Source: Micromonospora sp. WMMD1128
Lineage (GTDB): Bacteria > Actinomycetota > Actinomycetes > Mycobacteriales > Micromonosporaceae
Assembly: GCF_027497235.1 (NCBI RefSeq)
Contig: NZ_CP114902.1
Location: forward strand, 6,722,001 to 6,786,000
DNA: 64,000 nt
Reading direction: 5' to 3'
The stretch's first letter is position 1. Every line of letters begins with the position of its first letter. The notes below the pieces were generated by a model. It worked only from the letters and a program-made list of their open reading frames with translations. It made no database searches and was not told the DNA's origin. Positions 8,015 to 26,869 of the stretch are shown here, piece by piece. Position numbers and translations under genes: made by a program.

Positions 8015-8767
8015 TCATCCGCCGGGAGAGGTCTCCAGCAGGGTGCCGAGCACCTTGCCGAACTCCGGCGAGGCCAGATAGTTGCGCGCGCCGCGCACCC
8101 GGGGATCGCAGTCGAGCGACACCCGCCCGGTGACGCCGGCCGGAGCGGTCCCGGTGGCCAGGAGCAGCGTGTCCTGCACGTCGGTGAGATCCACCCAGGT
8201 GGCCGGCCCGGACGCCGGCGGTCCGACGACCGGGGGATGTGGTGCGCCCAGGGTGATCAACGCCGGAGCGGCGGCGCCGGCGTCGGCCAGGGCCAGCGCG
8301 GCGGCCACCCCACCCAGACAGTGGCCGATCACGATCTCGGTGTCCGGGCCGAGCGCCGCGCGTACGTCGTCGACCGCCGGGTGCCCGGCCGCCGGGCCGC
8401 CGGCGAACGCCAGCACCTGACGCAGGGTCCCGGTCAGCTCCTCGACGGTGAGGCCGCAGAAGTATCGGGACCAGGCCAGGCGGGCGGCCAACGCGTCCTC
8501 GCCGACGGGCTCCGCACCGGCTTCGGCGTCGAAGGTGGCGGCCCGCCAGCAGCGCCGCAGCAGTGCCGCCTCGGCGGCCGGATCACCGTCCCCGAGGGCC
8601 GGCACGCGGTCCGGGGCGTCGAGGTTGACCAGGGCGGCATCCGGCGCCACCGCCGGATAGCCGGCCAGCGCGAGGCCGTCCTCGATCGAGCTGATCCACT
8701 CCCGGCGGACCGAGTCGTCGGAGCGTCGTGGTCCGCCGGTGCCGTGCACGATGAGCAACCGGGACAT
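8015..8767 (-). CDS. Alpha/beta-hydrolase-like protein with Cys nucleophile motif
   Basis: A 250-residue protein that begins LLIVHGTGGP (oxyanion-hole-like HGTGG). It carries the nucleophile elbow IGHCLGG at about residue 145, with Cys in place of the usual Ser, as in dienelactone hydrolases. A beta-strand with ALITLGAPHP follows. The family beyond the fold is not clear. The ATG at 8767 has GAGAGGAGAG upstream; the open frame continues to 8974 but is out of family there. It is the last gene of a three-gene minus-strand unit, 28 bp behind the sulfotransferase, and diverges from the main biosynthetic operon. Editing thioesterase or product-tailoring esterase are possible roles (inference). Confidence 0.8.
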   Translation of the reverse strand: MSRLLIVHGTGGPRRSDDSVRREWISSIEDGLALAGYPAVAPDAALVNLDAPDRVPALGDGDPAAEAALLRRCWRAATFDAEAGAEPVGEDALAARLAWSRYFCGLTVEELTGTLRQVLAFAGGPAAGHPAVDDVRAALGPDTEIVIGHCLGGVAAALALADAGAAAPALITLGAPHPPVVGPPASGPATWVDLTDVQDTLLLATGTAPAGVTGRVSLDCDPRVRGARNYLASPEFGKVLGTLLETSPGG

Positions 8768-8795
8768 CCGTTCTCTCCTCTCAGACGAAGCCGGT

Positions 8796-9530
8796 TCAGG
8801 CGGCTGCGGGCAGCCGGTAGCCGTACCGTTCGACCCGGTCGGCGAGGTCGGCGAGGTCGTCGTCGGCCCCCGGGCCCTGCCGCCAGGCGTGCAGGTATCG
8901 GGTGTTGGTGTCCCGGTCCAGGTCGCCGACGTCGAAGGTGGGTGGGATGCCGGCGAAGGCCGCGATGGCATCAAGCGTCCGCCCCGGGTCGTCCATCAGG
9001 TCCTCGTAGCGGACGGTGAGCAGCGCGTCGAGGTGCGTGGCGTCGGCCCGGGCCAGTTCGTAGGCGTGCAGCCAGTGCTCGACGAGCTGCCGCACGGTCA
9101 GTGCCGGCGTCCACTTCCGGGTGCTCATCGCCACCCCCACCGGATGCCTGGTGACGAGCACGAACCGGGAGCCCGGGAAGAGCCGCTGGAAGAACCGGAA
9201 CCGCAACAAGTTCGGCGGCGACTTCTCCAGCAGGACCGGACGGTCGGGATCGAGATAGCGGCCCCACTGCTCACGCAGCAGGCGGGCGGTGGCCGGGGTG
9301 GCCAGCTCGTGGTGCTCGGTCATGTGCGCCCCGGGCGCGTACGCGAACCGCCCCGGACCGCCGTGCTGCTCGTCGTAGGGGCAGACGGTCTGCAGGTACT
9401 GACCCTCGTCCATCGGCGCGCCGGTCTGCCGGAACCCGGCCACCTGCGGATTCGTGCCGACAAGCGCGGCCAGCAGGGTGGTGCCGCTGCGGTGCATGCC
9501 GCCCATGAACAGAAAGCGCCCGGGTGTCAC
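8796..9530 (-). CDS. PAPS-dependent sulfotransferase
   Basis: A 244-residue cytosolic sulfotransferase of the Sulfotransfer_3 type. The 5'-phosphosulfate loop is FMGGMHRSGTTLLAAL (about residues 8-23), the catalytic-strand region includes LLEKSPPNLLRF, and the 3'-phosphate-binding motif is VLVTRHPVGVAMST (about 112-125). RYEDLMDDP is also typical. It transfers sulfate from PAPS to a hydroxyl or amine. The acceptor is unknown, but a product of the adjacent cluster is the obvious candidate. The GTG start overlaps the stop of the upstream phosphatase gene (GTGA), so the two are translationally coupled. The open frame further upstream is a shadow of that phosphatase. Confidence 0.9.
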   Translation of the reverse strand: MTPGRFLFMGGMHRSGTTLLAALVGTNPQVAGFRQTGAPMDEGQYLQTVCPYDEQHGGPGRFAYAPGAHMTEHHELATPATARLLREQWGRYLDPDRPVLLEKSPPNLLRFRFFQRLFPGSRFVLVTRHPVGVAMSTRKWTPALTVRQLVEHWLHAYELARADATHLDALLTVRYEDLMDDPGRTLDAIAAFAGIPPTFDVGDLDRDTNTRYLHAWRQGPGADDDLADLADRVERYGYRLPAAA

Positions 9531-10351
9531 CTGGTCTCCGTGAGGCTGTCGGTGTGCAGGGCCTCGCCGACCGCGCGGCCGAGGGTCTCGTACGCCGGGG
9601 CCCACGCGACGAAGCTGCCCCGCCGCCGGGTCGGCAGCGGATCGGGGTGGCTCAGGTAACCGCCGCCGGTCGCGGTGACGAGCGCCCGCCCGGCGGCGGT
9701 GTCCCAGTCGTAGACGTCCGCGTTGGCGGCCAGGTCGGCGCGGCCGGCCGCGACGTACGCCAGTGCCAGCGCGGACGAACCGAGCCGTCGTACGTCCGCG
9801 GCGGCGGTGAGCAGCGCGGCCAGCAGATCGGTCTCGGCGCGGGCCGGCGGCCCGCCGGCGTTCGGGATGTCGCACAGCACGAGCGGCGGCGCCGACGGCG
9901 CGGACGTACGCCCGGACAGCCGGGCGCCGTTCAGCCACGCGTAGCCGTCGGCCGCGGTGAACAGCTCCTCGTGCACCGGGTCGTAGACGCAGCCGCCCAC
10001 GGTACGACCGGCGATCCGCAGGCCGATCGAGACGCAGAAGAACGGGATGCCCCGGACGAAGTTGTAGGTGCCGTCGATCGGGTCGACGAGCCACACCGGA
10101 TCGTCCGCCCCGACGGCGGGGCCGTGCTGCCGGCCGCCTTCCTCACCCACCACCGTCGAGTTCGCGGCAGCGCCACGCAACGCGGCGCGGATCAGCTCCT
10201 CGGCGGCCAGGTCGGCCTCGGTCACGACGTCGTGGGCCGCCTCCTTCGTGGATGCCTCCATCGGAGCGCCGAACCGCTGCCGGAGCAGCCGGCCGGCGTC
10301 GACCGCGGACTGCGCCGCCACGTCGATGAGGTCCTGCACGGTGCTGGTCAC
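9527..10351 (-). CDS. Inositol-monophosphatase-family phosphatase (IMPase or CysQ-like PAP phosphatase)
   Basis: A 274-residue Mg-dependent, Li-sensitive-type phosphatase. The metal-binding motifs are VVGEEGG (about residues 67-73), DPIDGTYNFVRG (about 89-100) and YDWDTAAGRAL (about 218-228). The family covers inositol-1-phosphatase, histidinol-phosphatase and 3'-phosphoadenosine-5'-phosphate (PAP) phosphatase. The 4-bp coupling to a PAPS sulfotransferase favours PAP removal, the by-product of sulfation. An inositol-phosphate role is also possible given ino1 at 26.9 kb. The start is GTG. It begins the minus-strand unit divergent from the main biosynthetic operon. Confidence 0.9.
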   Translation of the reverse strand: MTSTVQDLIDVAAQSAVDAGRLLRQRFGAPMEASTKEAAHDVVTEADLAAEELIRAALRGAAANSTVVGEEGGRQHGPAVGADDPVWLVDPIDGTYNFVRGIPFFCVSIGLRIAGRTVGGCVYDPVHEELFTAADGYAWLNGARLSGRTSAPSAPPLVLCDIPNAGGPPARAETDLLAALLTAAADVRRLGSSALALAYVAAGRADLAANADVYDWDTAAGRALVTATGGGYLSHPDPLPTRRRGSFVAWAPAYETLGRAVGEALHTDSLTETR

Positions 10352-10387
10352 GGCGCCACGCTAGCCGCGTCCCCCGCGGTGCCGCGC

Positions 10388-10414
10388 TGCCCGGACGTGT
10401 CAGCCGTCCGGGCA
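10388..10414. promoter_or_regulatory. Perfect inverted repeat in divergent promoter region
   Basis: Ten-base perfect arms, TGCCCGGACG and CGTCCGGGCA, are separated by seven bases. They lie in the 180-bp region between the divergent phosphatase and aminotransferase operons. The repeat could be an operator for a cluster regulator or a 5'-UTR hairpin. It lacks a T-tract and lies between divergent genes, so a terminator role is unlikely. Confidence 0.45.
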
Positions 10415-10531: not shown

Positions 10532-11896
10532 ATGGCAGAAAGTTCAGGCGGCGGCCGACGTTTCGGGCGTTCTCCCGACCGGCCGCGTGGTGCTCAGCAC
10601 TGGGCCGCTGAGCAGGAAGTGATCGGACCCGGCCTGCAGGCCGTCATGCTCTGGGCACAGTTGTGCGTCGAGTCCGCCGCCGGCGCGGTCCTGGTCGACT
10701 CGGACGGCAACGAGATCATCGACTTCCAGGGGGCCGGCGGGGTCAACTCGATCGGCCACGCCAACCCACGCCTGATCGCCGCCCTCACCGCCGAGCTGGC
10801 CACCGCGCCGGCCGGGGCGTTCGGGTCGGCCGGCCGCCGGGCGATGGCCGAGTCGCTGCGTGAGTTCCTGCCGCCGCCACTGGACCGGATCCAGCTCTAC
10901 AGCGGTGGCACCGAGGCGGTGGAAGCGGCGCTGCGGCTGGCCAAGTCGGTCACCGGCAAGCACGAGTTCCTGTCGTTCTGGGGTGGCTTCCACGGCAAGA
11001 CGCTCGGCAGCCTGGCGCTCACCGCCGGGGCGCGGGCCGGCCTCGGGCCGCTGCCCCCGGGCTATTTCAGCGCGCCGTACGCCAACTGCTACCACTGCCC
11101 GCTCAAGATGACGTTCCCGAGCTGCGGCTTCGCTTGCGTGGAGACGGTGCGGGACACCATCAAGGAGAACTCCACCGGCGCGCTGGCGGCCCTCGTCGTC
11201 GAGCCGGTGCAGGGCCGGTCGGGAAACGTGGTGCCGCCACCGGGCTACCTGAACGCGCTGGCCTCGGTCGCCGACGAGTTCGACGCGCTGCTGATCGTCG
11301 ACGAGATGATGACCGGTTTCGGCCGTACCGGTGAGTCGTTCGCCTTCCTGCGTGACGAGGTGGCGCCGGACATCGTCACGGTCGGCAAGGGGATGGGCGC
11401 CGGATACCCGGTCACCGGGGTGATCTCCACCGCGGAGCTGATGGCCGCCAGCCCGTTCTCCGACCCGAGCGCCAGCTCGTCCAGCTTCGGCGCGTTCCCG
11501 CTGGCCTGCCGGGCGGTCGCCACCACCACGGACGTCCTGGTCGACGAGGACCTGCCCACCCGGGTGGGCAAGCTCGGCGCCGAGATGCTCGCGGCGCTCG
11601 AACCGCTCGTCGACGAGTCCCCGCTCGTCGGCGACGTCCGGGGCGCCGGGTTCGCGATCGGCATCGAGCTGGTCGCCGACAAGCAGTCCCGCCGGCCGCT
11701 GGACAAGGGCACCTTCCGGGAGACGTTCCTGGCGTTGCTCGACGCCGGGGTGCTGGTGATGACCGGGGGCACCACCCTGCGCCTCTACCCACCGCTGAAC
11801 GTGGACGCGGAGCTGGCCGAGCAGGCCGTCGAGATCATTCGCCGCGTGTTGACCGACGGCGCGGCGCCACAGCACCTTGAGGAGGGACCGGCATGA
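10532..11896 (+). CDS. Class III PLP-dependent aminotransferase
   Basis: A 454-residue aminotransferase of the acetylornithine/4-aminobutyrate/ornithine type. It shows the PLP-phosphate region SGGTEAVEAALRLAK, WGGFHGKTLGS, the Asp-containing VDEMMTGFGRTG, and the Schiff-base Lys in VTVGKGMGAGYP (about K286). A Cys-rich insert CYHCPLKMTFPSCGFACVE is present, as in some secondary-metabolism members. It should exchange an omega-amino group with a ketone or aldehyde. The ATG at 10532 has a GAGGCGGAG site. It is the first gene of the long biosynthetic operon and overlaps the oxidoreductase that follows by ATGA, suggesting consecutive dehydrogenation and transamination (inference). Confidence 0.94.
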   Translation: MAESSGGGRRFGRSPDRPRGAQHWAAEQEVIGPGLQAVMLWAQLCVESAAGAVLVDSDGNEIIDFQGAGGVNSIGHANPRLIAALTAELATAPAGAFGSAGRRAMAESLREFLPPPLDRIQLYSGGTEAVEAALRLAKSVTGKHEFLSFWGGFHGKTLGSLALTAGARAGLGPLPPGYFSAPYANCYHCPLKMTFPSCGFACVETVRDTIKENSTGALAALVVEPVQGRSGNVVPPPGYLNALASVADEFDALLIVDEMMTGFGRTGESFAFLRDEVAPDIVTVGKGMGAGYPVTGVISTAELMAASPFSDPSASSSSFGAFPLACRAVATTTDVLVDEDLPTRVGKLGAEMLAALEPLVDESPLVGDVRGAGFAIGIELVADKQSRRPLDKGTFRETFLALLDAGVLVMTGGTTLRLYPPLNVDAELAEQAVEIIRRVLTDGAAPQHLEEGPA

Positions 11897-12927
11897 GGAT
11901 CGCCGTCATCGGCTTCGGCACCGCGGGGGAAGGGCGACTGCACGCATACCGTACGGTCACCGCCGGCCGGGTCGTCGCGGTGCTCGACCCGTCACCGGAG
12001 CGGCGGGCCCGGGCCCGGCGGCTCGACCCCGGCCTGGCCACCTACACGACGTTGGCCGAGCTGCTCGCCGCCCAGCCGGTGGACGCGGTCGACATCTGCA
12101 CCCCACCGAACCACCACGTCGAGCTGGAACGCGAAGCGCTCGCCGCCGGTCTGCACGTGATCTGCGAGAAGCCGGTCGCGGTGCGCACCGACGAGGCACT
12201 CGACCTGATCAACCTGGCCCGGGACCGGGGCCTGCTGCTCTACCCCGCGCACAACTACGGGTTCTCGCCGATGATGCGGGTGCTCACCGGCGCGGTCACC
12301 GGCGGGCGGCTCGGCGGTCCGCTGCGGGCCCGGTTCCGGATCGCCCGTGACTCGCACGCCCGCGGGGTGCCGGGATGGCAACCGGACTGGCGTCGGGACA
12401 TCTCGGTGGCCCGGGGCGGGATCATGCTCGACCACGGGACGCACTGCGCGTACATGGCGACCCAGATCTTCGGCGAGGCGCCGCGGACGGTCTCCTGCGT
12501 CGCGCAGTGGGCGGACGGCGGCGCCGCCGACGGGATGGACGTGGCCGCCCGGCTGGACCTGGATTTCGGCGACGGCGGGACCTGCGAGATCGACCTGAGC
12601 TGGGTCAGTGACACCCGGTCGAACCGCTATCTGGTCAGCGGCCCGGACGGCACGGCCGACGTGCACGACGGGGTGGCCGAGGTGCGTACGGCGGGCGGGG
12701 TGGAGCGCACCGACCTGGCCCCGCCGACCCGCGACCAGACCCACCAGGAGTGGTTCGGCGGCATGTTCGCCGACTTCGCCGGCCTGATCGCCACGGGCAC
12801 CGGCTGGGACCGGCCGATGCGGGAGGTCGTCACCACGACGGCGCTGATCGAGGCGGCCTACCGGTCAGCCGGCCGCGGTGGAGAGCCGGTCGTCCCGGGC
12901 GGCCTCTCGGCCGCGGAAGCGCGGTGA
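11893..12927 (+). CDS. Gfo/Idh/MocA-family NAD(P)-dependent oxidoreductase
   Basis: A 344-residue oxidoreductase with an N-terminal Rossmann fold (IAVIGFGTAGEGRL), the signature VICEKPVAVR (catalytic Lys about K93), and a C-terminal alpha/beta domain with MLDHGTHCAYMA. Members oxidise or reduce hydroxyl groups of sugars and cyclitols such as myo-inositol. Coupling to the aminotransferase (ATGA overlap) suggests a ketone is made for transamination. The C-terminal domain carries the usual GGIMLDHGTH metal/substrate region. Substrate is unknown. The next gene begins in a GTGA overlap with its stop. Confidence 0.92.
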   Translation: MRIAVIGFGTAGEGRLHAYRTVTAGRVVAVLDPSPERRARARRLDPGLATYTTLAELLAAQPVDAVDICTPPNHHVELEREALAAGLHVICEKPVAVRTDEALDLINLARDRGLLLYPAHNYGFSPMMRVLTGAVTGGRLGGPLRARFRIARDSHARGVPGWQPDWRRDISVARGGIMLDHGTHCAYMATQIFGEAPRTVSCVAQWADGGAADGMDVAARLDLDFGDGGTCEIDLSWVSDTRSNRYLVSGPDGTADVHDGVAEVRTAGGVERTDLAPPTRDQTHQEWFGGMFADFAGLIATGTGWDRPMREVVTTTALIEAAYRSAGRGGEPVVPGGLSAAEAR

Positions 12928-14078
12928 CGGCCACCGAGATCCGGCTCAGCGTGGCGATCATGCACCACCCGCGCCGACGGGAGCGCATCCCACCGCTGGT
13001 GCGCGACTGCGCCCCGCTGGCCGCCCGGGTGGTGACCGACCCGGAACCGGACGGGTTGCCCAGCCCGTTGCGTACCGCGAAGGTGGCCTGGCGCTCGGTC
13101 GCCGCCGGCGCCACCCACCACCTGGTGTTGCAGGACGACATCCGGCTGATCCGGGGCTTCGCCACCCAGGTGCACCGGGCGATCGCGGCCCGTCCGGAAC
13201 ACGGGATCTCGCTCTACTCGCACTGGGACAGCCCGCAGAACTCGTACCTGGTCCGCCGCGCGGTGATCGCCGGTTGGCCGTTCGCGCCGCTGTCGCGGGT
13301 CGAGTGGACCCCCACCCAGGGGTTCGTCCTGCCGGTGACGTTGGCCCGGCAGTTGGCCGACTACCTGGCCGGCATTCCGGACGACGTCAAGGACGACGAC
13401 GAGATGGTGGTGATGTTCTGCCGGGAGGCCGGCATCCCGGTCGTCGGGACCGTGCCGCACCTGGTCGACCACCGGTTCGATCCGACGATCGTCGGGCATC
13501 CGGGCCGGTTCCACGCCACCGTGTTCCTGCCGGCCCCGGCGCTGTCGTCGGCGTACTGGCAGTTCAGCGCGAGCGCCGAGGAGGCCCTGGGCCGGCGGTG
13601 CCGCTTCGACGAGAAGCTGCCCTACACCGTGCAGCTGCATCGCAACCGCTGCCTGCTGCGACCGCTGCGGCCGGGCACCGGGGAACCTGTCGAACACGGT
13701 TTCGGCTGGTACTGGGCTGATCACTGCGGCCTGGTCGGGGTGACCGTGAGTCAGGTGGTGGACGGGTTCGACCGGCTGCTCGAGGTGACCGGCCTGCCGC
13801 CGGGTCTCCACTGGCGACTCGCCCTTGAGGTGTGGGCGGCCGGCTACCTGCTCGGCGCGGACGCGGTGACGGTCCGCCGTAAGGAGGCGGACGGGGTCTG
13901 GCCCCCGGCGGCGGTCGGGGCCGGGCTCGCCCAGGCCGCGATGACCAGTTGGATCACCTCCGGCCTGGCGGAGCCGGACGCCACCGCTCTGACCGACGAA
14001 CAGCGGGCGGCGCTGGTCGCGGTCGGCCTGGCCGGGGTGTCGCAGGGGTGGCTCGGCGGCTGGCAGGAGACGCCGTGA
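12924..14078 (+). CDS. Glycosyltransferase-like protein, paralogue of the 34.4-35.6 kb gene
   Basis: A 384-residue protein with features of a GT-A glycosyltransferase (resembling GT25/GT2). It has IMHHPRRRERIPPLV at the N-terminus, SPLRTAKVAW, then ATHHLVLQDDI with a DxD-like metal site (about residues 71-81), SPQNS, EWTP and VPHLVDHR. The C-terminal half is alpha-helical with LEVWAAGYLLGADA. The same ordered motifs occur in the minus-strand gene at 34375-35601, so the two are paralogues. The GTG start lies in a GTGA overlap with the oxidoreductase stop; the frame upstream of it is a shadow. Sugar transfer to the cluster product is the likely role, but the family assignment is tentative. Confidence 0.8.
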   Translation: MTATEIRLSVAIMHHPRRRERIPPLVRDCAPLAARVVTDPEPDGLPSPLRTAKVAWRSVAAGATHHLVLQDDIRLIRGFATQVHRAIAARPEHGISLYSHWDSPQNSYLVRRAVIAGWPFAPLSRVEWTPTQGFVLPVTLARQLADYLAGIPDDVKDDDEMVVMFCREAGIPVVGTVPHLVDHRFDPTIVGHPGRFHATVFLPAPALSSAYWQFSASAEEALGRRCRFDEKLPYTVQLHRNRCLLRPLRPGTGEPVEHGFGWYWADHCGLVGVTVSQVVDGFDRLLEVTGLPPGLHWRLALEVWAAGYLLGADAVTVRRKEADGVWPPAAVGAGLAQAAMTSWITSGLAEPDATALTDEQRAALVAVGLAGVSQGWLGGWQETP

Positions 14079-14194
14079 CGGCCTGGCATACCTGTTCGGC
14101 TACCCCAACCGCCCGCTCGATCGAGCCTTCTGCATCTGCCGGATCCGGCGGGACGCTGGTCCGGCACGTCACCGACACGCGGGGGAGCGCCTGA
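14075..14194 (+). CDS. Possible 39-residue peptide in operon gap
   Basis: A small frame starts with GTG overlapping the stop of the glycosyltransferase-like gene (GTGA) and ends in TGATG overlapping the start of the acyl-AMP ligase. It exactly fills the largest gap in an otherwise gap-free operon. The peptide begins VTAWHTCSATPTARS and has no recognisable domain. Its third-position GC is lower than that of its neighbours, and the ligase frame is also open here. It may be an accident of coupling rather than a gene. Confidence 0.25.
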   Translation: MTAWHTCSATPTARSIEPSASAGSGGTLVRHVTDTRGSA

Positions 14195-15966
14195 TGCCCG
14201 ATCACGAAACCTTCGTCGACCTGCTGCAGGAGCGTGCCGCCAGCCACCCGGAGCGACCGGCGTTGATCTTCGACGCCGACCCCGGACCGGGCGACGCCGC
14301 GGTGCGTACGGTGTCGTGGGCCGACCTGGCCGCCCGGGCCCGGCAGATCGCCGCGCTGCTCGCCGGCACCGTCCGCCCCGGTGACCGGGTGCTCGTGCTG
14401 AACGAGCCCGGCACCGCCTTCGCGGAGAACTTCCTCGGCGTCCAGCACGCCGGGGCGATCCCGGTGCCGGCCCCGCTGCCGGACGGATACCGTCGGCAAC
14501 GGGACCGGCTGGCCGGCATCGCCCACAACGCCCGGGTGGCCGCCGTGGTCACCGACGCCGCGGCCCTCGACGCGGTCCGCGACTGGGCGGCCGAGTGCGG
14601 GCTGTCCGACGTGCCGTGCCTGGCCTTCGACGACGTTCCCGCGGACCGGACGACGGCGTGGCGGCGGCCGGACATCGACGGGTCCACCATCGCCTTCCTG
14701 CAGTACACCTCCGGCTCCACGAGCGACCCCAAGGGCGTCGTCGTGGACCACGCCAACCTGGTGCCCAACCTGCGGGCGTTCAACGAGATCCTGGGTGGCG
14801 GCGAGGGCGTACGGGTCGGCGGCTGGCTGCCCATGTATCACGACTTCGGCCTCATCGGACAGTTGTTGGCGCCGCTCTCGCGGGGCGGGTGCAGCGTCGG
14901 GATGTCGGCCACCACGTTCCTCAAACGCCCCGTCACCTGGCTCCGGCTGATCGAGCGGCACGACGTCGAGATCTCCCCGGCGCCGAACTTCGCGTACGAC
15001 CTGTGCACCCGACGGATCACCGACGAGCAGATCGCCGGCCTCGACCTGTCCCGGTGGAAGCGCGCGGTCAACGGCTCGGAACCGGTGCAGGCGACCACCC
15101 TGGCCGCGTTCGGCAGGCGATTCGCCGCCGCCGGGCTGCGACCGGAGGCCATCTGTCCCGGGTACGGCCTGGCCGAGATCACGCTCAGCGTCAGCGGCGC
15201 CACCATCGGTCGCCCGCCGGTGGTGCTCACGGTCGACGCCGAACAGCTGGAACGACACGTCGTGACCCCGGTCGACGACGGCCACCCGGAACCGGTGCGT
15301 GACCTGGTCAGCAGCGGCGAGTCCACCCCGGAGTTCGACATCCGGATCGTCGATCCCGCCACCCGGTCGCCGCAGCCGCCGGACCGGATCGGCGAGATCT
15401 GGCTGCGTGGCGCCAGCGTGGCCCGGGGCTACTGGGCCAACCCGGAGGCCACCCGGGAGGTGTTCGACAACGAGCTGGCCGACGGCGAGGGCGGCTTCCT
15501 GCGTACCGGGGACCTGGGCCTGCTGCGCGACGGCCAGCTCTTCGTGACCGGCCGGATCAAGGAGCTGCTGATCGTCAACGGCCGCAACCTGTACCCGCAC
15601 GACATCGAGGTGGCGGTGCGCGCGGTGGACGAGAGTCTGTCCCGAGGCGTCGGCGCCGCCTTCACCGTCGAGGTGCCGCACGAGGAACTCGTCGTGGTGC
15701 AGGAGTGCCGGGCCCGCTCCCTCGACCCGGCGGCCCGCGCCGCCGTGGTCGCCGCGATCCGCCACCTGCTGTCGCGGGAGTTCGGGACCGGCGCGGTGAG
15801 CGTGGTGCTGGTCCGACCCGGCACGGTGCCCCGCACCACAAGCGGCAAGATCCAGCGCGGCCTGGCCCGGATGCTCTTCCTGACCGACGCCCTCGGCGCC
15901 GAGCACGAGCAGCTCACCGACGGCGCGCGGGCCGCGCGCCGGGCCGGCGACCCGGTGCGGGCCTGA
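14194..15966 (+). CDS. Fatty acyl-AMP ligase (FAAL)-type adenylating enzyme
   Basis: A 590-residue adenylate-forming enzyme of the FAAL class, which activates a fatty acid with ATP and passes it to an acyl carrier protein rather than to CoA. Motifs in order: P-loop YTSGSTSDPKG (residues 171-181), LPMYHDFGLIG, SPAPNFAYDLCTRR, NGSEPVQATT, YGLAEITLSV, GEIWLRGASVARGYW, RTGDLGLL, and the C-terminal catalytic Lys region TTSGKIQR. The wording of several motifs (MYHDFGLIG, APNFAYDLC) is typical of FAALs rather than acyl-CoA ligases. The ATG overlaps the preceding stop (TGATG). It is probably the entry point of the fatty-acid part of the pathway, with the ACP at 19.4 kb as likely acceptor. Confidence 0.92.
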   Translation: MPDHETFVDLLQERAASHPERPALIFDADPGPGDAAVRTVSWADLAARARQIAALLAGTVRPGDRVLVLNEPGTAFAENFLGVQHAGAIPVPAPLPDGYRRQRDRLAGIAHNARVAAVVTDAAALDAVRDWAAECGLSDVPCLAFDDVPADRTTAWRRPDIDGSTIAFLQYTSGSTSDPKGVVVDHANLVPNLRAFNEILGGGEGVRVGGWLPMYHDFGLIGQLLAPLSRGGCSVGMSATTFLKRPVTWLRLIERHDVEISPAPNFAYDLCTRRITDEQIAGLDLSRWKRAVNGSEPVQATTLAAFGRRFAAAGLRPEAICPGYGLAEITLSVSGATIGRPPVVLTVDAEQLERHVVTPVDDGHPEPVRDLVSSGESTPEFDIRIVDPATRSPQPPDRIGEIWLRGASVARGYWANPEATREVFDNELADGEGGFLRTGDLGLLRDGQLFVTGRIKELLIVNGRNLYPHDIEVAVRAVDESLSRGVGAAFTVEVPHEELVVVQECRARSLDPAARAAVVAAIRHLLSREFGTGAVSVVLVRPGTVPRTTSGKIQRGLARMLFLTDALGAEHEQLTDGARAARRAGDPVRA

Positions 15967-19395: not shown

Positions 19396-19664
19396 CCATC
19401 TTGCCGAACCACCGGGCCGCCGGACAGCTCCGTCCGTGGCTACAGGACCGCGTCGCCGCTTTCACCGACCGGGACCCGGCCACCATCGACACCGCCGCAC
19501 CCCTGTCCGACCTGGGCCTCGACTCGGTGTACGCGCTCGCGCTCTGCGGCGAGATCGAGGACCACCTCGGGGTGCCGCTGGAACCGACGATCGTGTGGGA
19601 CCACCCGAGCATCGACGCGCTCACCGAGTACCTGACCGGCCTGCCGCTGGACGCCGGGACGTGA
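19392..19664 (+). CDS. Acyl carrier protein 1
   Basis: A 90-residue free-standing carrier protein with the phosphopantetheine site DLGLDSVYALAL (Ser about residue 45) and a helical EIEDHLGVPLEPTIVWDHPSIDALTEYL tail pattern typical of type II ACP/PCP proteins. I assign a TTG start that overlaps the stop of the preceding gene (TTGA), because AAGGAG lies seven bases upstream. It sits between the dehydrogenase pair and a KAS III gene, so it probably carries the acyl chain supplied by the FAAL (inference). Confidence 0.9.
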   Translation: MTILPNHRAAGQLRPWLQDRVAAFTDRDPATIDTAAPLSDLGLDSVYALALCGEIEDHLGVPLEPTIVWDHPSIDALTEYLTGLPLDAGT

Positions 19665-20599: not shown

Positions 20600-21979
20600 A
20601 TGACGACGACACAGGAACCTTTCGTCAGACGGCTGCGGACGGCGCTGCTGGGCACCGACCGGACCCCCCTGGTGTTCCTCGGCAACTTCGAGGTCGAGCA
20701 GCGGTGGGGCGGTGACGAGCCGGGCCTGCCCCGGGTCGCGCTGACCGCGGGTGACGCGATGGTGAACCGGATGGACGAGTTCGCCCTGCTGCTGGCCGGT
20801 CCGGACGACCACGTGGTTCTCAAGGACCAGCCGGACCCGGAGCACCTGGCCCACCTGGAGAAACTCGGGGCCGCCCTGCCGCATCTGCTGGTCACCGACC
20901 GGCAGGACCCGCACCACACGGTGACCCAGGACGCGCTGGACAGCCCGGCCCTGCTGACCCGGCTGTCCGCCCTGGCCGGGGCGGCGGCGATCGTCCCGCA
21001 CGGCGTCTCCGCGGACGAGGAGGCGCTCGCCGCGCGTACCGGGGTGGCGCTGGCCGGGTCGCCGGCGGCCGTCTGCAAGGCCGTCAACGGCAAGATCTAC
21101 AGCCGGCGGATCGCCACCGAGCTGGGGCTGCGCCAGTCCGCGGGCTGGACCTGCGAGACCATCGAGGAACTGGACGAGGCGGTGGAACACGCGCGGGCTC
21201 TGCTCGCGGCCGGGCGGCCGGTGGTGCTCAAGGACTCGTACGGGGTGTCCGGCAAGGGCCTGCTGCTGATCCGGGACGAGGCGCGCCTGGACCAGATCCA
21301 CCGGACGCTGCGTCGCCGGGCCGACCGTTCCGGCGACCACCGGCTGGCGCTGCTGGTCGAGGAGTGGGTCGCCAAGACCACCGACCTCAACTACCAGTTC
21401 ACCGTGTTCCGCGACGGCGGGGTGCACTTCGACTTCGTCAAGGAGGCGGTCACCGCCAACGGCGTACACAAGGGGCACCGGATGCCGGCGGGGCTGACCG
21501 CGCGGCAGCTCGCGGCCGTGACGCACAGCGCCGCGGCGCTCGGCGCCCGGCTCGCCCGCGACGGCTACCACGGCGTGGTCGGGGTGGACGCGATGCTCGA
21601 CCCGGAGGGCGGCGTCTACCCGGTCGTGGAGATCAACGCGCGGCACAACATGTCCACCTATCAGGTCGGGCTCCAGGAACACCTGGTGCCGGCGGGCTGG
21701 TGCGCGCTGGCCCGGCAGTATCCGCTGCGCCTGGCCCGGCCGCTCCGCTTCGGCGAGGTCCGTGACGGGCTCGGGCCGTGGCTGCTGGGCGACGCCGGCC
21801 GGGCCGGAATGGTGGTGCAGAACTTCTCGACGGTGAACGCCCTGGTGCGGGAAGGCACGGGGGCCGCCGACGGCCGCCTGTACGGCTTCCTGACCGCGCC
21901 GACGACCGACGAGTTGATGGCGATGGACGGGGAGATCGCGGGCCGCCTGGCGGCCGTGGCGGAAGGAACACGACGGTGA
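20600..21979 (+). CDS. ATP-grasp carboxylate-amine or carboxylate-thiol ligase
   Basis: A 459-residue ATP-grasp enzyme with a pre-ATP-grasp domain, then VVLKDSYGVSGKGLLLI (ATP-binding loop, about residues 205-221), a LLVEEWV hinge, and the metal-binding YPVVEINARHNMSTYQ region (about 343-358). Such enzymes form acyl phosphates and ligate amines or thiols. Its position directly before a BtrK-like decarboxylase and an ACP parallels butirosin biosynthesis, where the ATP-grasp enzyme BtrJ loads glutamate onto the ACP BtrI. I propose amino-acid:ACP ligation here. Amide ligation onto the growing product is the alternative. The ATG lies 9 bp after the KAS III stop. Confidence 0.88.
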   Translation: MTTTQEPFVRRLRTALLGTDRTPLVFLGNFEVEQRWGGDEPGLPRVALTAGDAMVNRMDEFALLLAGPDDHVVLKDQPDPEHLAHLEKLGAALPHLLVTDRQDPHHTVTQDALDSPALLTRLSALAGAAAIVPHGVSADEEALAARTGVALAGSPAAVCKAVNGKIYSRRIATELGLRQSAGWTCETIEELDEAVEHARALLAAGRPVVLKDSYGVSGKGLLLIRDEARLDQIHRTLRRRADRSGDHRLALLVEEWVAKTTDLNYQFTVFRDGGVHFDFVKEAVTANGVHKGHRMPAGLTARQLAAVTHSAAALGARLARDGYHGVVGVDAMLDPEGGVYPVVEINARHNMSTYQVGLQEHLVPAGWCALARQYPLRLARPLRFGEVRDGLGPWLLGDAGRAGMVVQNFSTVNALVREGTGAADGRLYGFLTAPTTDELMAMDGEIAGRLAAVAEGTRR

Positions 21980-23232
21980 CCGGAGAAGTGGCGATCCAGG
22001 GCGTTGCGATGTCCGAACTGGCCGAGCGGTTCGGCACGCCCCTCTACGTGTACGACGGGGACAGCCTGCGTGGGCAGTACCTGGGGTTGCGCGAGCGGCT
22101 GCACCCGGCGATGGAGATCTTCTATTCGCTCAAGGCCAACCCGAACGTGGCCGTCTGCGCCCTGCTCGGCGCGCAGGGCGCCCGGGCGGAGGTGTCGTCC
22201 ATGGTGGAGCTGCGCACCGCGCTCGCCGCCGGGGTGGCCCCGGGCGACATCATCTTCCTGGGCCCCGGCAAGAGCCGCGCCGAACTTGAGGCGTGCCTGT
22301 CCGAAGGCGTCTTCGCGCTTGTCTGCGAGTCGTTCGGGGAGCTGGCGCTGATCGACGAGCTGGCCCGGGAACGGGGCGTCATCGCCCCGGTGATGCTGCG
22401 GGTCAACCCGAGCTTCGCGGTCAAGGGCTCCGGCCTCACCATGGGCGGCAAGCCGCGCCAGTTCGGGATCGACGAGCAGCAGCTCTTCGACGAGGTCGAC
22501 CTGGTCAAGAACCATCCCGGGGTACGCGTCCTGGGCGTGCACGCCTACCTGGGCACCCGCATCCTCGATCCCGAGGTGGTCGCCGAGAACGCCCGCCGGA
22601 TCATCGACCTGGCCGAGCGGCTCGCCGAGCGGCTGGACTTCGTCCTGGAGGCGGTCGACGTGGGCGGTGGCCTCGGCGTGGCCTACTTCCCCGGCGAACC
22701 GGACCTCGACCCGGCCGCGGTCGCCGGCCTGCTCAACCCGGTGGTCGAGGCGTTCCAGGCCGCGCACCCCGGGGCCCGGCTGCTGCTGGAGCTGGGCCGT
22801 TACCTGACCGCGCCGTGCGGCACGTACGTCACCCGGGTGCGGTACGTGAAGAGTTCCATGGGGGAGCGTTTCGCGGTCACCGACGGCGGCACCAACCACC
22901 ACATGGCGGCCGTCGGCATCGGCTCCTACGTCAAGCGCAACTTCCCGATGCGGCTGCTCAACCGGGCCGGCACGGACGCCGCCCCGTGGAACGTCACCGG
23001 CCCGCTGTGCACGCCGAACGACACCGTCGGCCGCAACGTGGAACTGCCCGAGCTGCGGCCGGGCGACCTGGTCGGCGTGCTGCGCTCCGGCGCGTACGGC
23101 CCGAGCGCCTCACCTGTGCTCTTCCTCAGCCACGGCCACCCGGCCGAGGTGCTCGTGGACGGCGGCCGGGCCCGCCTGGTCCGCCGCCGCGACACCGTCG
23201 AGGACCTGCTCGGACCGCAGATCCTCGACTGA
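21976..23232 (+). CDS. Type III PLP-dependent decarboxylase (BtrK/LysA-like)
   Basis: A 418-residue alanine-racemase-fold decarboxylase. The PLP Lys is in FYSLKANPN (about K53). Also seen are EVSSMVELRTAL, FLGPGKSRAEL, MGGKPRQFGIDE, the glycine loop DVGGGLGV, ELGRYLTAPCGTY and the active-site Cys in GPLCTPND (about C345). The wording of several motifs is closer to my recollection of BtrK, the L-glutamyl-ACP decarboxylase of butirosin biosynthesis, than to diaminopimelate decarboxylase. It probably removes the alpha-carboxyl of a carrier-bound amino acid. The GTG start overlaps the ATP-grasp stop (GTGA) and the second ACP follows after 36 bp. Confidence 0.9.
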   Translation: MTGEVAIQGVAMSELAERFGTPLYVYDGDSLRGQYLGLRERLHPAMEIFYSLKANPNVAVCALLGAQGARAEVSSMVELRTALAAGVAPGDIIFLGPGKSRAELEACLSEGVFALVCESFGELALIDELARERGVIAPVMLRVNPSFAVKGSGLTMGGKPRQFGIDEQQLFDEVDLVKNHPGVRVLGVHAYLGTRILDPEVVAENARRIIDLAERLAERLDFVLEAVDVGGGLGVAYFPGEPDLDPAAVAGLLNPVVEAFQAAHPGARLLLELGRYLTAPCGTYVTRVRYVKSSMGERFAVTDGGTNHHMAAVGIGSYVKRNFPMRLLNRAGTDAAPWNVTGPLCTPNDTVGRNVELPELRPGDLVGVLRSGAYGPSASPVLFLSHGHPAEVLVDGGRARLVRRRDTVEDLLGPQILD

Positions 23233-23268: not shown

Positions 23269-23544
23269 ATGACCATGGCTTCGGAGGCCACCGTCGACCG
23301 CGCCGCGGTCGTCGACCACGTGATCGACGCCGTTGTCGCGGTGCTGAACCGCGACTCGGTCCAGGTGACCGAGCAGACCCGGCTGATGGACGAGCTGGGC
23401 CTGGACTCCACGAACGTTCTCGAGCTGCTGATGCACATCGAGGACCGGCTGGACGTCGTGATCGACTCGGACACGCTGGAGCAGCACCACTTCGAATCGG
23501 TCGGCAGCCTCGCCGACTACATCCTCGAGCAGGGCCTGGCCTGA
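23269..23544 (+). CDS. Acyl carrier protein 2
   Basis: A 91-residue carrier protein with the phosphopantetheine site DELGLDSTNVLELLM (Ser about residue 47) and the helix MHIEDRLDVVIDSD. The ATG has a strong AGGAGG seven bases upstream, the best ribosome site in this operon, suggesting high expression. It follows the ATP-grasp ligase and decarboxylase and is the probable carrier for the amino acid they process, like BtrI. It differs clearly from ACP 1, so the cluster appears to use two dedicated carriers. Confidence 0.93.
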   Translation: MTMASEATVDRAAVVDHVIDAVVAVLNRDSVQVTEQTRLMDELGLDSTNVLELLMHIEDRLDVVIDSDTLEQHHFESVGSLADYILEQGLA

Positions 23545-23549
23545 CGCCG

Positions 23550-24389
23550 ATGTTCCTGTCCATCGCTCCGGCCCCGTCGACCCGTACGGGTCGGCTCCGG
23601 CCGACTCAGGTGATCGCCCGCCGGTTCGGCCCCGACCCGGAGCCGTACCGGGGCGATCCGCTGCTCGAGGAATACCTCTCGGACATGACCGAGCTGTACG
23701 GCCGCCGGTTCGACCGGGACCGGCACGCGGCGGCCGGCCGGAACTCGTTCACCGACATGGCGGACCGCCTGGTGCGTGATCTCGACCTGGCGGTGCCGGT
23801 GGACCTGATCGCCATCGCGCACTCCACCCCGGACGCCGACCCGCGCCGGGTCACCGCCTGCTATCTGAGCGAGCTCGTGCACGGCGATCCCCTCGCCTTC
23901 GCGGTGTCCGACCAGGGACCGGTGGCGGCGTTCACCGCCCTGCGGCTGCTCGGGACCTACTCCGGCGACTTCCCGGGCTGCCGGGCGTTGCTGCTGGTCC
24001 TGGAGCAGACGACGATGTCGTACGAGGTGGTCGGGGCCCGCTATCCGGTGCCCGGACACGACGCCGGGGTGGCCGTGCTGCTCGAACCGGCCGGCTCGGA
24101 CGGGGCGACCGTGCACCAGCGTCCGGACGTCGCGCCCACGGCGGTCGGGACGCTGCTCGACGAGCTGGTGCCGGCGGACGCCGTCGTGATCGCCGGTCCC
24201 GGCCTGACCGCCGGCCCGGGCCGTCCGGTGGTCCGGGCGCCGGACCTGGGCGCGGCAGGTGTCTGGGCCGAGTTCGCCAGGCACCGGGCGGGCACCGCCG
24301 GGCCGATCGCGGTGGCGGACCACGACCCGGTGTCGGGCACTCTCTGCGCGGCGGTCTTCGCCGGCTCGGACCCGGAGACCCGGTCGTGA
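23550..24389 (+). CDS. Thiolase/KAS III-fold protein lacking the catalytic Cys
   Basis: A 279-residue protein whose pattern suggests the N-terminal half of a KAS III fold: DLIAIAHSTPDADPR, a strand-turn-helix at AFAVSDQGPVAAFTAL where condensing enzymes have the Cys nucleophile, then CRALLLVLEQTTM. The nucleophile position reads DQGP, with no Cys. The C-terminal half of the fold is not evident, and its last segment PIAVADHDPVSGTLCAAVF resembles the closing strands. A pseudo-condensing enzyme partnering the KAS III at 19.7 kb is one idea; I do not recognise a characterised family. The ATG is 5 bp after the ACP 2 stop, and its own stop overlaps the next start (GTGA). Confidence 0.75.
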   Translation: MFLSIAPAPSTRTGRLRPTQVIARRFGPDPEPYRGDPLLEEYLSDMTELYGRRFDRDRHAAAGRNSFTDMADRLVRDLDLAVPVDLIAIAHSTPDADPRRVTACYLSELVHGDPLAFAVSDQGPVAAFTALRLLGTYSGDFPGCRALLLVLEQTTMSYEVVGARYPVPGHDAGVAVLLEPAGSDGATVHQRPDVAPTAVGTLLDELVPADAVVIAGPGLTAGPGRPVVRAPDLGAAGVWAEFARHRAGTAGPIAVADHDPVSGTLCAAVFAGSDPETRS

Positions 24390-25039
24390 TCGCCGACCAG
24401 GCCCGGCGCAGCGCCCGGACCGGCGGGCTCACCGCCACGCTCACCACGATGCACGACACGCTTGCGGGCGGGGTCCTGCCGTGCGGCCCGACCGGGTGCT
24501 GCGTGCTGCCCGAGCCGACGCTGCGCGACGCCGGCCGGGTCTGGACCGGGGACACGGTCGCCGCCCTGGACCCGGCCGCCGTCGAGCGGCTCGGCACGGT
24601 CGAGACAGCGGACGGCCGGCTGGCGGCCGTCCGCTACCGGGGCGCCGCCGACCCGGCCGGCGCCCCGGCGCCCTGGCCGGAGTGGATGGCCGCGCTGGCC
24701 GGGCTCCGGCTCGGGCTGTCCGAGGCACTGCTCGACCTCACCGTCGCCCACCTCGGCGACCGCCGCGCCGGGGACACCCCGCTGTTGCTGCAACAGATGA
24801 TCAAGGGCGCGCTGGCGGACGTCGTCACCGAGCAGATCGAGATCAAGGTCCGGCTGACCGGTACGCCGCCACCGGCCGGATCCCTGGCCGCCCTGCACCG
24901 GCAGATCACCACCGCCGACCGGATGCTGCTGCGCCTGCTCGGGGCCAGCGGGTTCGTCGCGGACGGCCCGGGCCTGGCGGTGAACGCGTCGGAGTTGCTG
25001 GCCGACGCCTGGATCGGTGGAGAGGGGTGGACGGCGTGA
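24386..25039 (+). CDS. Small acyl-CoA dehydrogenase C-terminal-domain-like protein
   Basis: A 217-residue, helix-rich protein. Segments LAGLRLGLSEALLDLTVAHLGDR, LLLQQMIKGALADVVTEQIEIKVRL and DRMLLRLLGASGFVADGPGLAV follow the pattern of the C-terminal helical bundle of acyl-CoA dehydrogenases, whose RLLGGxG loop contacts FAD across the dimer. The N-terminal FAD domains are missing. The GTG start overlaps the previous stop, and its stop overlaps the next gene, a full dehydrogenase, so it is likely a partner subunit. Function otherwise unknown. Confidence 0.72.
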   Translation: MIADQARRSARTGGLTATLTTMHDTLAGGVLPCGPTGCCVLPEPTLRDAGRVWTGDTVAALDPAAVERLGTVETADGRLAAVRYRGAADPAGAPAPWPEWMAALAGLRLGLSEALLDLTVAHLGDRRAGDTPLLLQQMIKGALADVVTEQIEIKVRLTGTPPPAGSLAALHRQITTADRMLLRLLGASGFVADGPGLAVNASELLADAWIGGEGWTA

Positions 25040-26193
25040 TCGAACTCGACGACCGGCTCGGCACCGCCCGGGCGCACGCCCGGGACTGGGCGCGCGACCT
25101 GCGCTCGACGGCGTTGGAGCTGGACCGTGACCCGGACACCGTGTACCGGTGCCTGGACAACCCGGCGGTACGGCACCTGTCCACCATGCTCATCCCGGCG
25201 CCGTGGCTGCCGGACCGGACGCTCATCGGCGGACACCGGTTCGACGGCATGACCGCGATGGAGCGAGTGGTGTTCGCCGAGGAGATCGCCGCCGGTGACG
25301 CCGGCATGATGCTCGCGTCCCCCGGCGCCTCGCTGTCCGGGGTGCTCATCGACCTGCTCGCCGACCAGGACCAGAAGGAGTGGTTCTACGGCCGGCTACT
25401 GGCCGCGCCGACCTGGACCTTCTTCGCGCTCACCGAACCCGACCACGGCTCGGACGCGGCGGCGATGGGCACGACGCTCGACCCGGACGGCGACGGGGGC
25501 CTGCTCCTGCGGGGTGCCAAGCGCTACATCGGCAACGGCGCCCGGGCCCAGGTCGGCGTCGTCTTCGCCCGGGACCGGCCCGGCCCGCTCGGCGCCACCG
25601 CGGTGCTCGTCGAGACCGACGCGCCCGGCTTCAAGGCCGAGCCGATCCCGACGATCGGCCTGCGCGGCGCCCAGCTCAGCGCGATCACACTCGACGGCGT
25701 GCCGGTCCCGGCCGGTCGGGTGCTCGGGCACCACCTCAGTCCCACCCGGCGCGGGGTGTGGAGCGGCGTGCAGATGTTCAACCGGCTCCGACCGGGCGTG
25801 GCGGCGATCGCCCTGGGCATCGCCCGGTCCGCGCACGACTACGTCATCGAGCAGCGTGGTTCGCTGTCCAAGGCCGATCGGCTGCGTTGGGAACGCACCG
25901 GCCGGCGGATCGACGGCGTACGACAGCTCATCTGGCAGGCGGCCTCGATCGTGGACGCCCAGCCGGCGAACGGCCACCTGGCGTCGGCGGCGAAGGCCCG
26001 GGCGGCCCGACTCGCCGAGGAGGTGACGCTTGAGGCGCTCGACTACTTCGGCCCGGGCGCGCGGCTGACTCAGCCGATGCTGGACAAGCTGATCCGCGAC
26101 GCCCGGGGGGTGGAATTCATGGAAGGCACCGGCAACATCCAGCGACTCAACACCTTCCAGGGCCTCATACAGGGCAAACTCGGCCGTGACTGA
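25036..26193 (+). CDS. Acyl-CoA dehydrogenase with intact catalytic Glu
   Basis: A 385-residue dehydrogenase of normal family length. FAD/substrate motif FFALTEPDHGSDAAAM (about residues 130-145), GAKRYIGNGARA, and the catalytic base in EFMEGTGNIQRLNTFQG (about E363) are all present. It oxidises an acyl thioester to the enoyl form. In this context the substrate is probably ACP-bound rather than CoA-bound. The GTG start overlaps the preceding stop (GTGA), supporting a complex with the small C-terminal-domain-like protein. The following phosphopantetheinyl transferase starts inside its last codons. Confidence 0.92.
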   Translation: MIELDDRLGTARAHARDWARDLRSTALELDRDPDTVYRCLDNPAVRHLSTMLIPAPWLPDRTLIGGHRFDGMTAMERVVFAEEIAAGDAGMMLASPGASLSGVLIDLLADQDQKEWFYGRLLAAPTWTFFALTEPDHGSDAAAMGTTLDPDGDGGLLLRGAKRYIGNGARAQVGVVFARDRPGPLGATAVLVETDAPGFKAEPIPTIGLRGAQLSAITLDGVPVPAGRVLGHHLSPTRRGVWSGVQMFNRLRPGVAAIALGIARSAHDYVIEQRGSLSKADRLRWERTGRRIDGVRQLIWQAASIVDAQPANGHLASAAKARAARLAEEVTLEALDYFGPGARLTQPMLDKLIRDARGVEFMEGTGNIQRLNTFQGLIQGKLGRD

Positions 26194-26869
26194 CCCGGGC
26201 GGCGTCGACGTCTGGACCGTACACCTGGACCGGGACGTCGACGCCGCCCACTGGCTCAGCGCGGCCGAGCTGCGGCGGGCCGCCGCCGTCGGCGACCCGG
26301 ACGGACGCCGCCGCTTCGTGGTGGCGCACGCCGCGTTGAACGCGATCCTCGCCGACCGGCTGGACCTGCGCCCCACCGCGCTGCCGCTGCGCCGCAACCC
26401 GCGCGGGCGGCCGTACCTGCCGGGCCGGTCGCTGCACTTCAGCCTGGCGCACGCCGGGGATCGGGCGTTGATCGCGGTCGCCGGCCGGGAGGTCGGTGTG
26501 GACCTCGACCATCCCCGGCCGGGGCTGGATCCGCGGCGGATGGCCGCACGTTTCTTCACCCCCGCGGAGGCCGCCCGGGTGGCGGCGGCGGGCACCGCGG
26601 CCTACGCGGCGTACCTGCGGCTGTGGACCCGCAAGGAGGCGTGCGTCAAGGCCGCCGGCGCGCGCCTGGCGCTCGGGCTGCGGCTGCCGGTCCCCGGCGC
26701 GGCGGGCGGGGCGGTGGTCCGCGACCCGTCCAACCGGCTGCCCGGCGCCTACTTCCTCCGGGACCTGCCCGACCACGGACTCTTCCGCGCTGCCGTGGCA
26801 CTGGCCGGCACGGATCCGGCACGCTGCCACCGCCGCGAGTTCCGCCGCGATCTCCGACGGAAGCCGTGA
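26186..26869 (+). CDS. Sfp-type 4'-phosphopantetheinyl transferase
   Basis: A 227-residue PPTase that would convert the two ACPs (and possibly others) from apo to holo form using CoA. Motifs: RGRPYLPG, HFSLAHAGD, the Mg site VGVDLDHPRP (about residues 107-116) and the signature LWTRKEACVKA (about 147-157). The GTG start overlaps the dehydrogenase gene by 8 bp. It is the last gene of the operon and is followed by a strong hairpin terminator. A dedicated PPTase supports the reading of this operon as a self-contained carrier-protein pathway. Confidence 0.94.
   Translation: MTDPGGVDVWTVHLDRDVDAAHWLSAAELRRAAAVGDPDGRRRFVVAHAALNAILADRLDLRPTALPLRRNPRGRPYLPGRSLHFSLAHAGDRALIAVAGREVGVDLDHPRPGLDPRRMAARFFTPAEAARVAAAGTAAYAAYLRLWTRKEACVKAAGARLALGLRLPVPGAAGGAVVRDPSNRLPGAYFLRDLPDHGLFRAAVALAGTDPARCHRREFRRDLRRKP

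Follow-up and report, generated by a model that had tools for sequence, protein, structure and literature searches.

A conserved carrier-protein and aminocyclitol-type gene cluster in Micromonospora sp. WMMD1128, a candidate source of a lipid-linked aminocyclitol

We analyzed a stretch of 64,000 nucleotides from Micromonospora sp. WMMD1128 (NZ_CP114902.1, positions 6722001-6786000; the genome forms one contig of 6,814,137 bases), hereafter the window, and focused on a biosynthetic gene cluster that contains two free-standing acyl carrier proteins (ACPs). Fifteen uninterrupted reading frames lie tightly packed on the + strand between positions 10532 and 26869. At 13 of the 14 junctions the spacing was between -8 and +36 nt, the exception being a 115-nt gap between the glycosyltransferase-like gene C and the fatty acyl-AMP ligase (FAAL) gene D; the gap-free operon described in a first-pass annotation of this DNA therefore stands except for this interruption. 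The operon is part of a larger conserved cluster (about 29 kb, approximately 8015-36938), so that the limits originally drawn (8015-26869) were too narrow. Protein families were assigned by Pfam and NCBIfam profile searches. The genes are listed below, where KAS is beta-ketoacyl-ACP synthase, ACAD acyl-CoA dehydrogenase, PLP pyridoxal phosphate and GT-A the glycosyltransferase A fold; counts refer to 11 window-type clusters, the window included.

8015..8767, - strand: m3, alpha/beta-hydrolase-like (Pfam Abhydrolase, E 6.6e-5, just under the cut-off; 7/11 clusters)
8796..9530, - strand: m2, sulfotransferase (Pfam Sulfotransfer_3, E 3.1e-25; 8/11 clusters)
9527..10351, - strand: m1, inositol-monophosphatase-type phosphatase (Pfam Inositol_P, E 3.4e-55; 11/11 clusters)
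10532..11896, + strand: A, class III aminotransferase (Pfam Aminotran_3, E 6e-86; 10/11 clusters)
11893..12927, + strand: B, Gfo/Idh/MocA oxidoreductase (Pfam, E 1.2e-24; 10/11 clusters)
12924..14078, + strand: C, GT-A glycosyltransferase-like (no Pfam match; AlphaFold/Foldseek; 11/11 clusters)
14194..15966, + strand: D, FAAL-type (Pfam AMP-binding; FAAL models in NCBIfam, under cut-offs)
15968..17689, + strand: E, ACAD-type with Asp at the catalytic Glu position (Pfam; FDG in 10/10)
17689..19395, + strand: F, ACAD-type with no acid at that position (Pfam; 10/10)
19392..19664, + strand: ACP1, acyl carrier protein 1 (NCBIfam; GLDS site)
19661..20590, + strand: G, KAS III-like acyltransferase (Pfam ACP_syn_III_C; C115 and H235 invariant in 10/10)
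20600..21979, + strand: H, PreATP-grasp/ATP-grasp ligase, predicted to load an amino acid on ACP2 (Pfam)
21976..23232, + strand: I, BtrK-like PLP decarboxylase, predicted substrate an ACP-bound amino acid (best PDB match BtrK, E 2.8e-95)
23269..23544, + strand: J, acyl carrier protein 2, ACP2 (Pfam PP-binding)
23550..24389, + strand: K, Cys-less, possibly a KAS-like partner (11/11 clusters at 32-89% identity; fold relation weak)
24386..25039, + strand: L, partial ACAD-like, predicted partner of M (Pfam, E 0.0017, under cut-off; 11/11 clusters)
25036..26193, + strand: M, ACAD, predicted N-acyl-beta-alanyl-ACP desaturase (Pfam; MEGT Glu in 11/11)
26186..26869, + strand: N, phosphopantetheinyl transferase (Pfam ACPS; one of six ACPS matches in the genome)
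26922..28001, - strand: myo-inositol-phosphate synthase, second copy (NCBIfam TIGR03450, 646.6 bits against a cut-off of 638; in a clade of its own)
28183..29322, + strand: histidine kinase (Pfam; 4/11 clusters)
29351..30016, + strand: LuxR-type response regulator (Pfam)
30175..32235, + strand: MMPL family transporter (Pfam, E 2.4e-75; 4/11 clusters)
32287..33723, - strand: stand-alone condensation-domain protein, predicted amide-forming acyltransferase (Pfam Condensation, E 1.3e-13)
33711..34346, - strand: f3, uncharacterised, with a conserved Cys pair (no Pfam match; 11/11 clusters)
34375..35559, - strand: second GT-A-like protein (50% identical to C)
35598..36938, - strand: MATE family transporter (Pfam, E 3.5e-19; 11/11 clusters)

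Most families named in the first-pass annotation were borne out by Pfam and NCBIfam, including the FAAL, KAS III, ATP-grasp ligase, aminotransferase, Gfo/Idh/MocA oxidoreductase and phosphopantetheinyl transferase; protein I was placed in the Orn/DAP/Arg decarboxylase family, and its BtrK-like character comes from the PDB match. Both ACPs were also recovered: J through its PP-binding domain, and ACP1, which lacked a Pfam match, through carrier-containing proteins in NCBIfam and a GLDS site conserved in 10 of 10 clusters. The best matches of D were FAAL models, all below their own NCBIfam cut-offs. Of four proposed ACAD-type proteins, E, F and M were identified by Pfam, but L matched only part of one ACAD domain. 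The Cys-less protein K, previously read as KAS-like, matched no Pfam or NCBIfam family; its comparison with the KAS III profile gave an hhalign probability of 2%, with an alignment covering the stretch that bears the KAS nucleophile, and the name given to one homologue in its source is 'beta-ketoacyl-ACP synthase family protein'. The divergent unit does contain the reported sulfotransferase, together with the inositol-monophosphatase-type gene. As stated earlier, modular polyketide synthases or nonribosomal peptide synthetases (NRPSs) were not found: among the cluster proteins searched in Pfam there was no condensation-adenylation-carrier (C-A-PCP) protein, only the stand-alone condensation-domain protein. 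The first reading had overlooked the inositol branch (phosphatase 9527-10351 and synthase 26922-28001) as well as the conserved condensation-domain protein, second glycosyltransferase and exporters at 30175-36938.

To describe the conservation of the cluster, we compared the 11 window-type clusters, which had been picked for A, B, C or m1/m2/m3 near the carrier-protein genes, so that the counts of those genes are partly set by choice; one of them (G018) entered from a separate search, and two (G127 and G123) stop at contig ends. All 11 clusters contained m1, C, D, G, H, I, J, L, M, f3 and the MATE gene, and 10 contained A, B, E, F, ACP1 and the condensation-domain gene. Fewer had N (9), the sulfotransferase (8), m3 (7), the myo-inositol-phosphate synthase (5), the MMPL gene (4) or a polysaccharide deacetylase-type gene (3), and K was found in four clusters at 40% identity or more and in all 11 at 32% or more. 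The carriers belonged to Micromonosporaceae, Streptosporangiaceae and Thermomonosporaceae. Orthologues of A at E <= 1e-110 were present in 8 of 17 genomes, once each, and all eight genomes were of the window type. Several of the single families are common, which is all that speaks for a chance assembly of housekeeping genes around an ACAD operon. Such an assembly is extremely improbable and is refuted by synteny: the same set recurs in ten further genomes of three families, and orthologues of A and H each occurred in only 1 of 396 genomes across the phylum, the window's own (four candidates per genome scored). Thus, the cluster is confirmed, and its genes co-occur beyond chance.

The central genes are more widespread. 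Of 121 genomes searched, 11, the window's own among them, matched the ATP-grasp ligase H at E <= 1e-20, and one scan of named genomes yielded 118 relatives, 80 of which were kept. In the 70 loci whose flanks reach 1.5 kb or more upstream and 5 kb or more downstream, we counted homologues near H for G (59), I (61), J (60), K (54), L (47), M (53), N (39), D (21), E (13) and F (13), showing that a G/H/I/J/K/L/M cassette recurs widely in actinobacteria. In four loci (L044, L053, L068 and L081) the cassette lies beside OCD and PALP genes and an NRPS with condensation, AMP-binding and PP-binding domains, and the E/F pair was not seen in these loci. The OCD genes were searched for in 26 genomes and the four loci followed up, so other in-cluster OCD genes may exist (e.g. 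L098). An OCD and PALP pair is typical of diaminopropionate (Dpr) synthesis, as expected for enamidonin-like lipopeptides.

Other arrangements of the cassette were also observed. Three loci (L071, L090 and L103; Cellulosimicrobium and Sphaerisporangium) combine a FAAL, the cassette and a MATE gene with a longer C-like protein (563-675 aa); no A or B homologue was seen in them, and in L071 a HAD-type hydrolase follows the C-like gene. Streptomyces canus (L041 and L042) has FAAL-E-F-ACP1-cassette-phosphopantetheinyl transferase, with no B, C or m genes within the available flanks, and the S. decoyicus linear plasmid record NZ_CP108348.1 (L018) has the cassette by an NRPS, an MMPL transporter and chorismate-pathway genes. 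In Actinomadura xylanilytica (L159/L160), arylsulfotransferase-like, type III polyketide synthase/KAS III-like and Sulfotransfer_4 genes lie just downstream of the cluster and have counterparts in A. logoneensis.

Conserved residues provided further hints about the carrier-protein enzymes. M keeps the ACAD catalytic Glu (MEGT) in all 11 clusters, whereas E has Asp (FDG) at this position and F no acid, each in 10 of 10. E and F (15968-19395) are two long ACAD-type proteins without the usual Glu, and they may represent a split dehydrogenase with an unusual mechanism. In G, Cys115 and His235 are invariant (10/10), and an invariant His266 occupies the position at which FabH carries Asn, a pattern more in keeping with acyl transfer than with decarboxylative condensation. 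Of the two KAS III homologues looked for, G fits by its Pfam match and its Cys115 and His235, and the match of K is weak.

Several known pathways share parts of this machinery. The butirosin side chain is presumably made by BtrI/BtrJ/BtrK, that is, an ATP-grasp ligase, an ACP and a decarboxylase acting on an ACP-bound amino acid. BtrK acts on glutamate, and BtrO is a flavin monooxygenase that hydroxylates the ACP-bound unit. The window contains the same set of ATP-grasp ligase, ACP and BtrK-type decarboxylase, but a BtrO-type flavin monooxygenase, as needed for the 4-amino-2-hydroxybutyrate (AHBA) unit of butirosin, was absent among the cluster proteins searched in Pfam, and dehydrogenation and N-acylation are predicted for the window pathway instead.

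The free-standing ACP and BtrK-like decarboxylase of N-acyl-dehydro-beta-alanine starter pathways are both present. According to the pathway description for bolagladin, its genes encode the BtrK-like BolN, the ACP BolC, the KAS III proteins BolM/BolP, the dehydrogenase BolQ and the VinN-like BolO, and the proposed steps are loading, decarboxylation of aspartyl-ACP by BolN, N-acylation and desaturation; no product was formed once bolN had been deleted, and strains without bolQ made dihydro-bolagladins (PMC7756342). The window resembles this system in its free-standing ACP, BtrK-like decarboxylase, KAS III-like protein G and ACAD, but has an ATP-grasp ligase rather than BolO, an extra partial ACAD, aminocyclitol-type genes and no modular NRPS. 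AFC-BC11, described as a dehydro-beta-alanine trimer ending in a lysine-derived residue, is likewise similar in its FAAL, single carrier protein, PLP decarboxylase, KAS III-like enzymes and lack of a classical NRPS (PMC12186527). It differs from the window in its adenylating enzyme AfcQ, the window having an ATP-grasp ligase in place of the VinN-type adenylating ligase of bolagladin and AFC-BC11, and inositol genes such as those of the window are not mentioned in the available part of that report.

The enamidonins were named in the bolagladin report as the sole other natural products then known to contain dehydro-beta-alanine (PMC7756342). Enamidonin-type Streptomyces peptides (enamidonin/autucedine/olenamidonin) are described with two Dpr residues, and the chain of olenamidonin A is given as 8'-methyldecanoyl, a name without a double bond (PMC11204786, PMC12843350). 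Given the dehydro-beta-alanine of enamidonin and the four loci in which the cassette adjoins an NRPS and Dpr-type genes, the cassette appears to be tied to dehydro-beta-alanine. In contrast with the window, the acceptor in this class, as described, is a cyclic peptide, and no FAAL-linked E/F pair was seen in the four loci. A possible, but on balance unlikely, alternative is that the decarboxylated unit is gamma-aminobutyrate (GABA) made from glutamate as in butirosin, with M producing a 4-aminocrotonyl group instead of dehydro-beta-alanine: BtrK is the closest PDB relative of I, and the UniRef name of one H homologue (P0154) begins '[Butirosin acyl-carr...', like a ligase named for the butirosin carrier protein. 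However, the H-I-J set adjoins the NRPS and Dpr-type genes in the four loci, a setting linked with a dehydro-beta-alanine class, and BolN is BtrK-like, yet is proposed to act on aspartyl-ACP (PMC7756342).

With regard to the head group, we analyzed the inositol-type genes. Three copies of the synthase family (PF01658) were found in the window genome. The copy at 6.456 Mb adjoins PadR, DUF5318 and penicillin-binding-protein genes, which we take to be the usual actinobacterial setting of the housekeeping synthase; thus, the copy in the window appears to be an extra one. For the same reasons, the gene at 26922-28001 was rejected as the housekeeping mycothiol gene. An extra synthase adjoins 5 of the 11 clusters. 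In a tree of 20 rows, from which the G018 synthase was left out, the cluster synthases of the window, Actinoplanes palleronii and P. bogorensis (all Micromonosporaceae) formed a clade with 100/100 support, separate from the remaining copies in these genomes, whereas the Microbispora cluster synthase grouped with the second copy of its own genome (99/96), as a separate recent duplicate. These two placements suggest at least two separate recruitments of the synthase into the cluster.

The phosphatase gene m1 lies side by side, or nearly so, with A and B in most clusters. Together, the synthase and m1 likely give the aminotransferase A and the oxidoreductase B a substrate. In the parts of the hygromycin A work that treat the aminocyclitol, a synthase (Hyg18), a phosphatase (Hyg25), a Gfo/Idh/MocA dehydrogenase (Hyg17) and an aminotransferase (Hyg8) are proposed to make it, and oxidation of myo-inositol by Hyg17 has been demonstrated (PMC10949010). 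The window encodes these four types as well, at 26922-28001, which supplies the dedicated synthase of such a pathway, 9527-10351, 11893-12927 and 10532-11896. The acyl part of hygromycin A is cinnamic acid, whereas the window has a class III aminotransferase and a predicted lipid-enamide acyl unit.

Two alternatives concern these genes. First, the carrier chemistry could be the same and the head group an amino sugar, with B and A oxidising and aminating a sugar, m1 dephosphorylating a sugar phosphate and the synthase being incidental or feeding mycothiol synthesis. The solved relatives nearest B include sugar oxidoreductases, six of the 11 clusters have no adjacent synthase, and in three clusters the deacetylase-type gene stands between B and C. 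We nevertheless consider this rather unlikely, because the synthase adjoins the cluster in two lineages with separate origins, the genome still has its PadR-linked copy at another place, and the best NCBIfam family of B is inositol 2-dehydrogenase. Second, m1 may recycle 3'-phosphoadenosine 5'-phosphate for the sulfotransferase in the manner of CysQ, which belongs to the same family, and be unrelated to inositol; the m1 and m2 genes indeed overlap in the window. This seems quite improbable, since m1 scored 140 bits as inositol-1-monophosphatase, 128 as HisN and 98 as CysQ, was kept in three clusters in which no m2 homologue was seen (G123, G124 and G129), and in G126 and G128 immediately precedes A-B in the same orientation.

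The remaining conserved proteins may act in assembly and tailoring. The AlphaFold model of C (pLDDT 70.6) matched GT-A glycosyltransferases in Foldseek (36 chains at E <= 1e-3, TM-score 0.27-0.36 by query length), its sequence gave two weak matches in the PDB, and we place the predicted GT-A fold at moderate confidence; the earlier glycosyltransferase-like call is thus backed by the model and not by Pfam. The typical condensation-domain motif is HHxxxDG, and in the condensation-domain protein H155 and D159, corresponding to the second His and the Asp, are invariant (10/10). The protein f3 (211 aa) has a CxxC-type pair (C35/C38) invariant in 9 of 9 and is always encoded near the second GT-A gene; a fold search of the PDB returned no match at E <= 1e-3, and no Pfam family was assigned.

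Taking these data together, we propose the following pathway, whose reactions, amino acid, cyclitol head group, acceptor and order of steps we infer from gene content. D would load a fatty acid on ACP1, where E/F would desaturate it. H would attach an acidic amino acid to ACP2 by the side-chain carboxylate, aspartate being the likeliest candidate, and decarboxylation by I would give beta-alanyl-ACP2. G, perhaps with K, would then acylate the free amine with the chain carried by ACP1, and M (with L), by analogy with bolagladin, would desaturate the product to N-acyl-dehydro-beta-alanyl-ACP2, an enamide thioester. In a parallel branch, the synthase, m1, B and A may convert glucose 6-phosphate to an amino-inositol, whose amine the condensation-domain protein (32287-33723) could link to the enamide acyl unit. 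The two GT-A proteins may add sugars, the sulfotransferase sulfate, and the MATE and MMPL proteins may serve export. The product would then probably be an N-(enoyl)-dehydro-beta-alanyl aminocyclitol, glycosylated and possibly sulfated, in line with the general type first predicted (a desaturated acyl group joined to a decarboxylated amino acid).

In favor of this scheme, besides the conserved gene set, the recurring cassette, the extra synthase and the parallels with bolagladin and hygromycin A, M keeps the catalytic Glu and E/F do not, and E/F were unseen in the four NRPS loci. A number of observations weigh against it. For the acyl branch, bolagladin and AFC-BC11, as described, use a VinN-type adenylating enzyme and not an ATP-grasp ligase; BtrK itself acts on glutamate, making a GABA-derived unit possible; the KAS nature of K is weakly supported; and E, F and ACP1 are missing from the part of G125 that was examined. 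For the head group, m1 and B both score under NCBIfam cut-offs (B with 65 bits against 355 for inositol 2-dehydrogenase), B matches a dehydrogenase and 1,5-anhydro-D-fructose reductase in the PDB better than it does inositol dehydrogenases, A most resembles putrescine and GABA aminotransferases, and, besides the six clusters without an adjacent synthase, G125 has no PF01658 match at all. In addition, f3 has no explanation in the scheme. On balance, that the cluster makes a lipid-linked (lipid-enamide) aminocyclitol by this full route is in our judgment neither more nor less probable than the contrary, and the interpretation given in the first-pass annotation is partly supported.

Outside the cluster, a histidine kinase, a LuxR-type response regulator and two other LuxR-type proteins (4346-7912) adjoin it; their relatives recur beside other clusters, and they are possible pathway regulators. 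A FAD-dependent monooxygenase of the aromatic hydroxylase type (39795-41240, - strand) lies beyond the cluster edge and shows no sign of membership.

We found no described pathway or product of such make-up in the open-licence literature, although subscription papers may hold one. The earlier suggestion of an undescribed pathway has to be narrowed accordingly: the carrier-protein core is of a kind known, as far as the sources describe it, from bolagladin and AFC-BC11, and the cassette recurs beside NRPSs, but its union with an aminocyclitol branch and without a modular NRPS appears to be new, the novelty lying in this pairing and not in the chemistry of either half. We suggest, as a tentative proposal that falls somewhat short of an even chance, a new class in which a desaturated acyl-dehydro-beta-alanine is carried on a glycosylated, sulfated amino-inositol, built by an ATP-grasp/BtrK-type cassette, released by a stand-alone condensation-domain protein, made by several actinomycete families and having recruited the synthase at least twice. 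If true, this would bring together two pathway types that were otherwise seen apart here, namely the starter cassette for enamide lipids in lipopeptides and the inositol-based route to aminocyclitols, and a lipidated aminocyclitol would combine features of lipopeptide and aminoglycoside antibiotics. Enzymes of particular interest are the ATP-grasp ligase in place of an adenylating enzyme, the two paired dehydrogenase systems, f3 and the free condensation-domain protein with its predicted non-peptide acceptor. Finally, the cassette offers a handle for genome mining (118 loci in one genome collection), with its neighbors separating peptide-type from aminocyclitol-type products.

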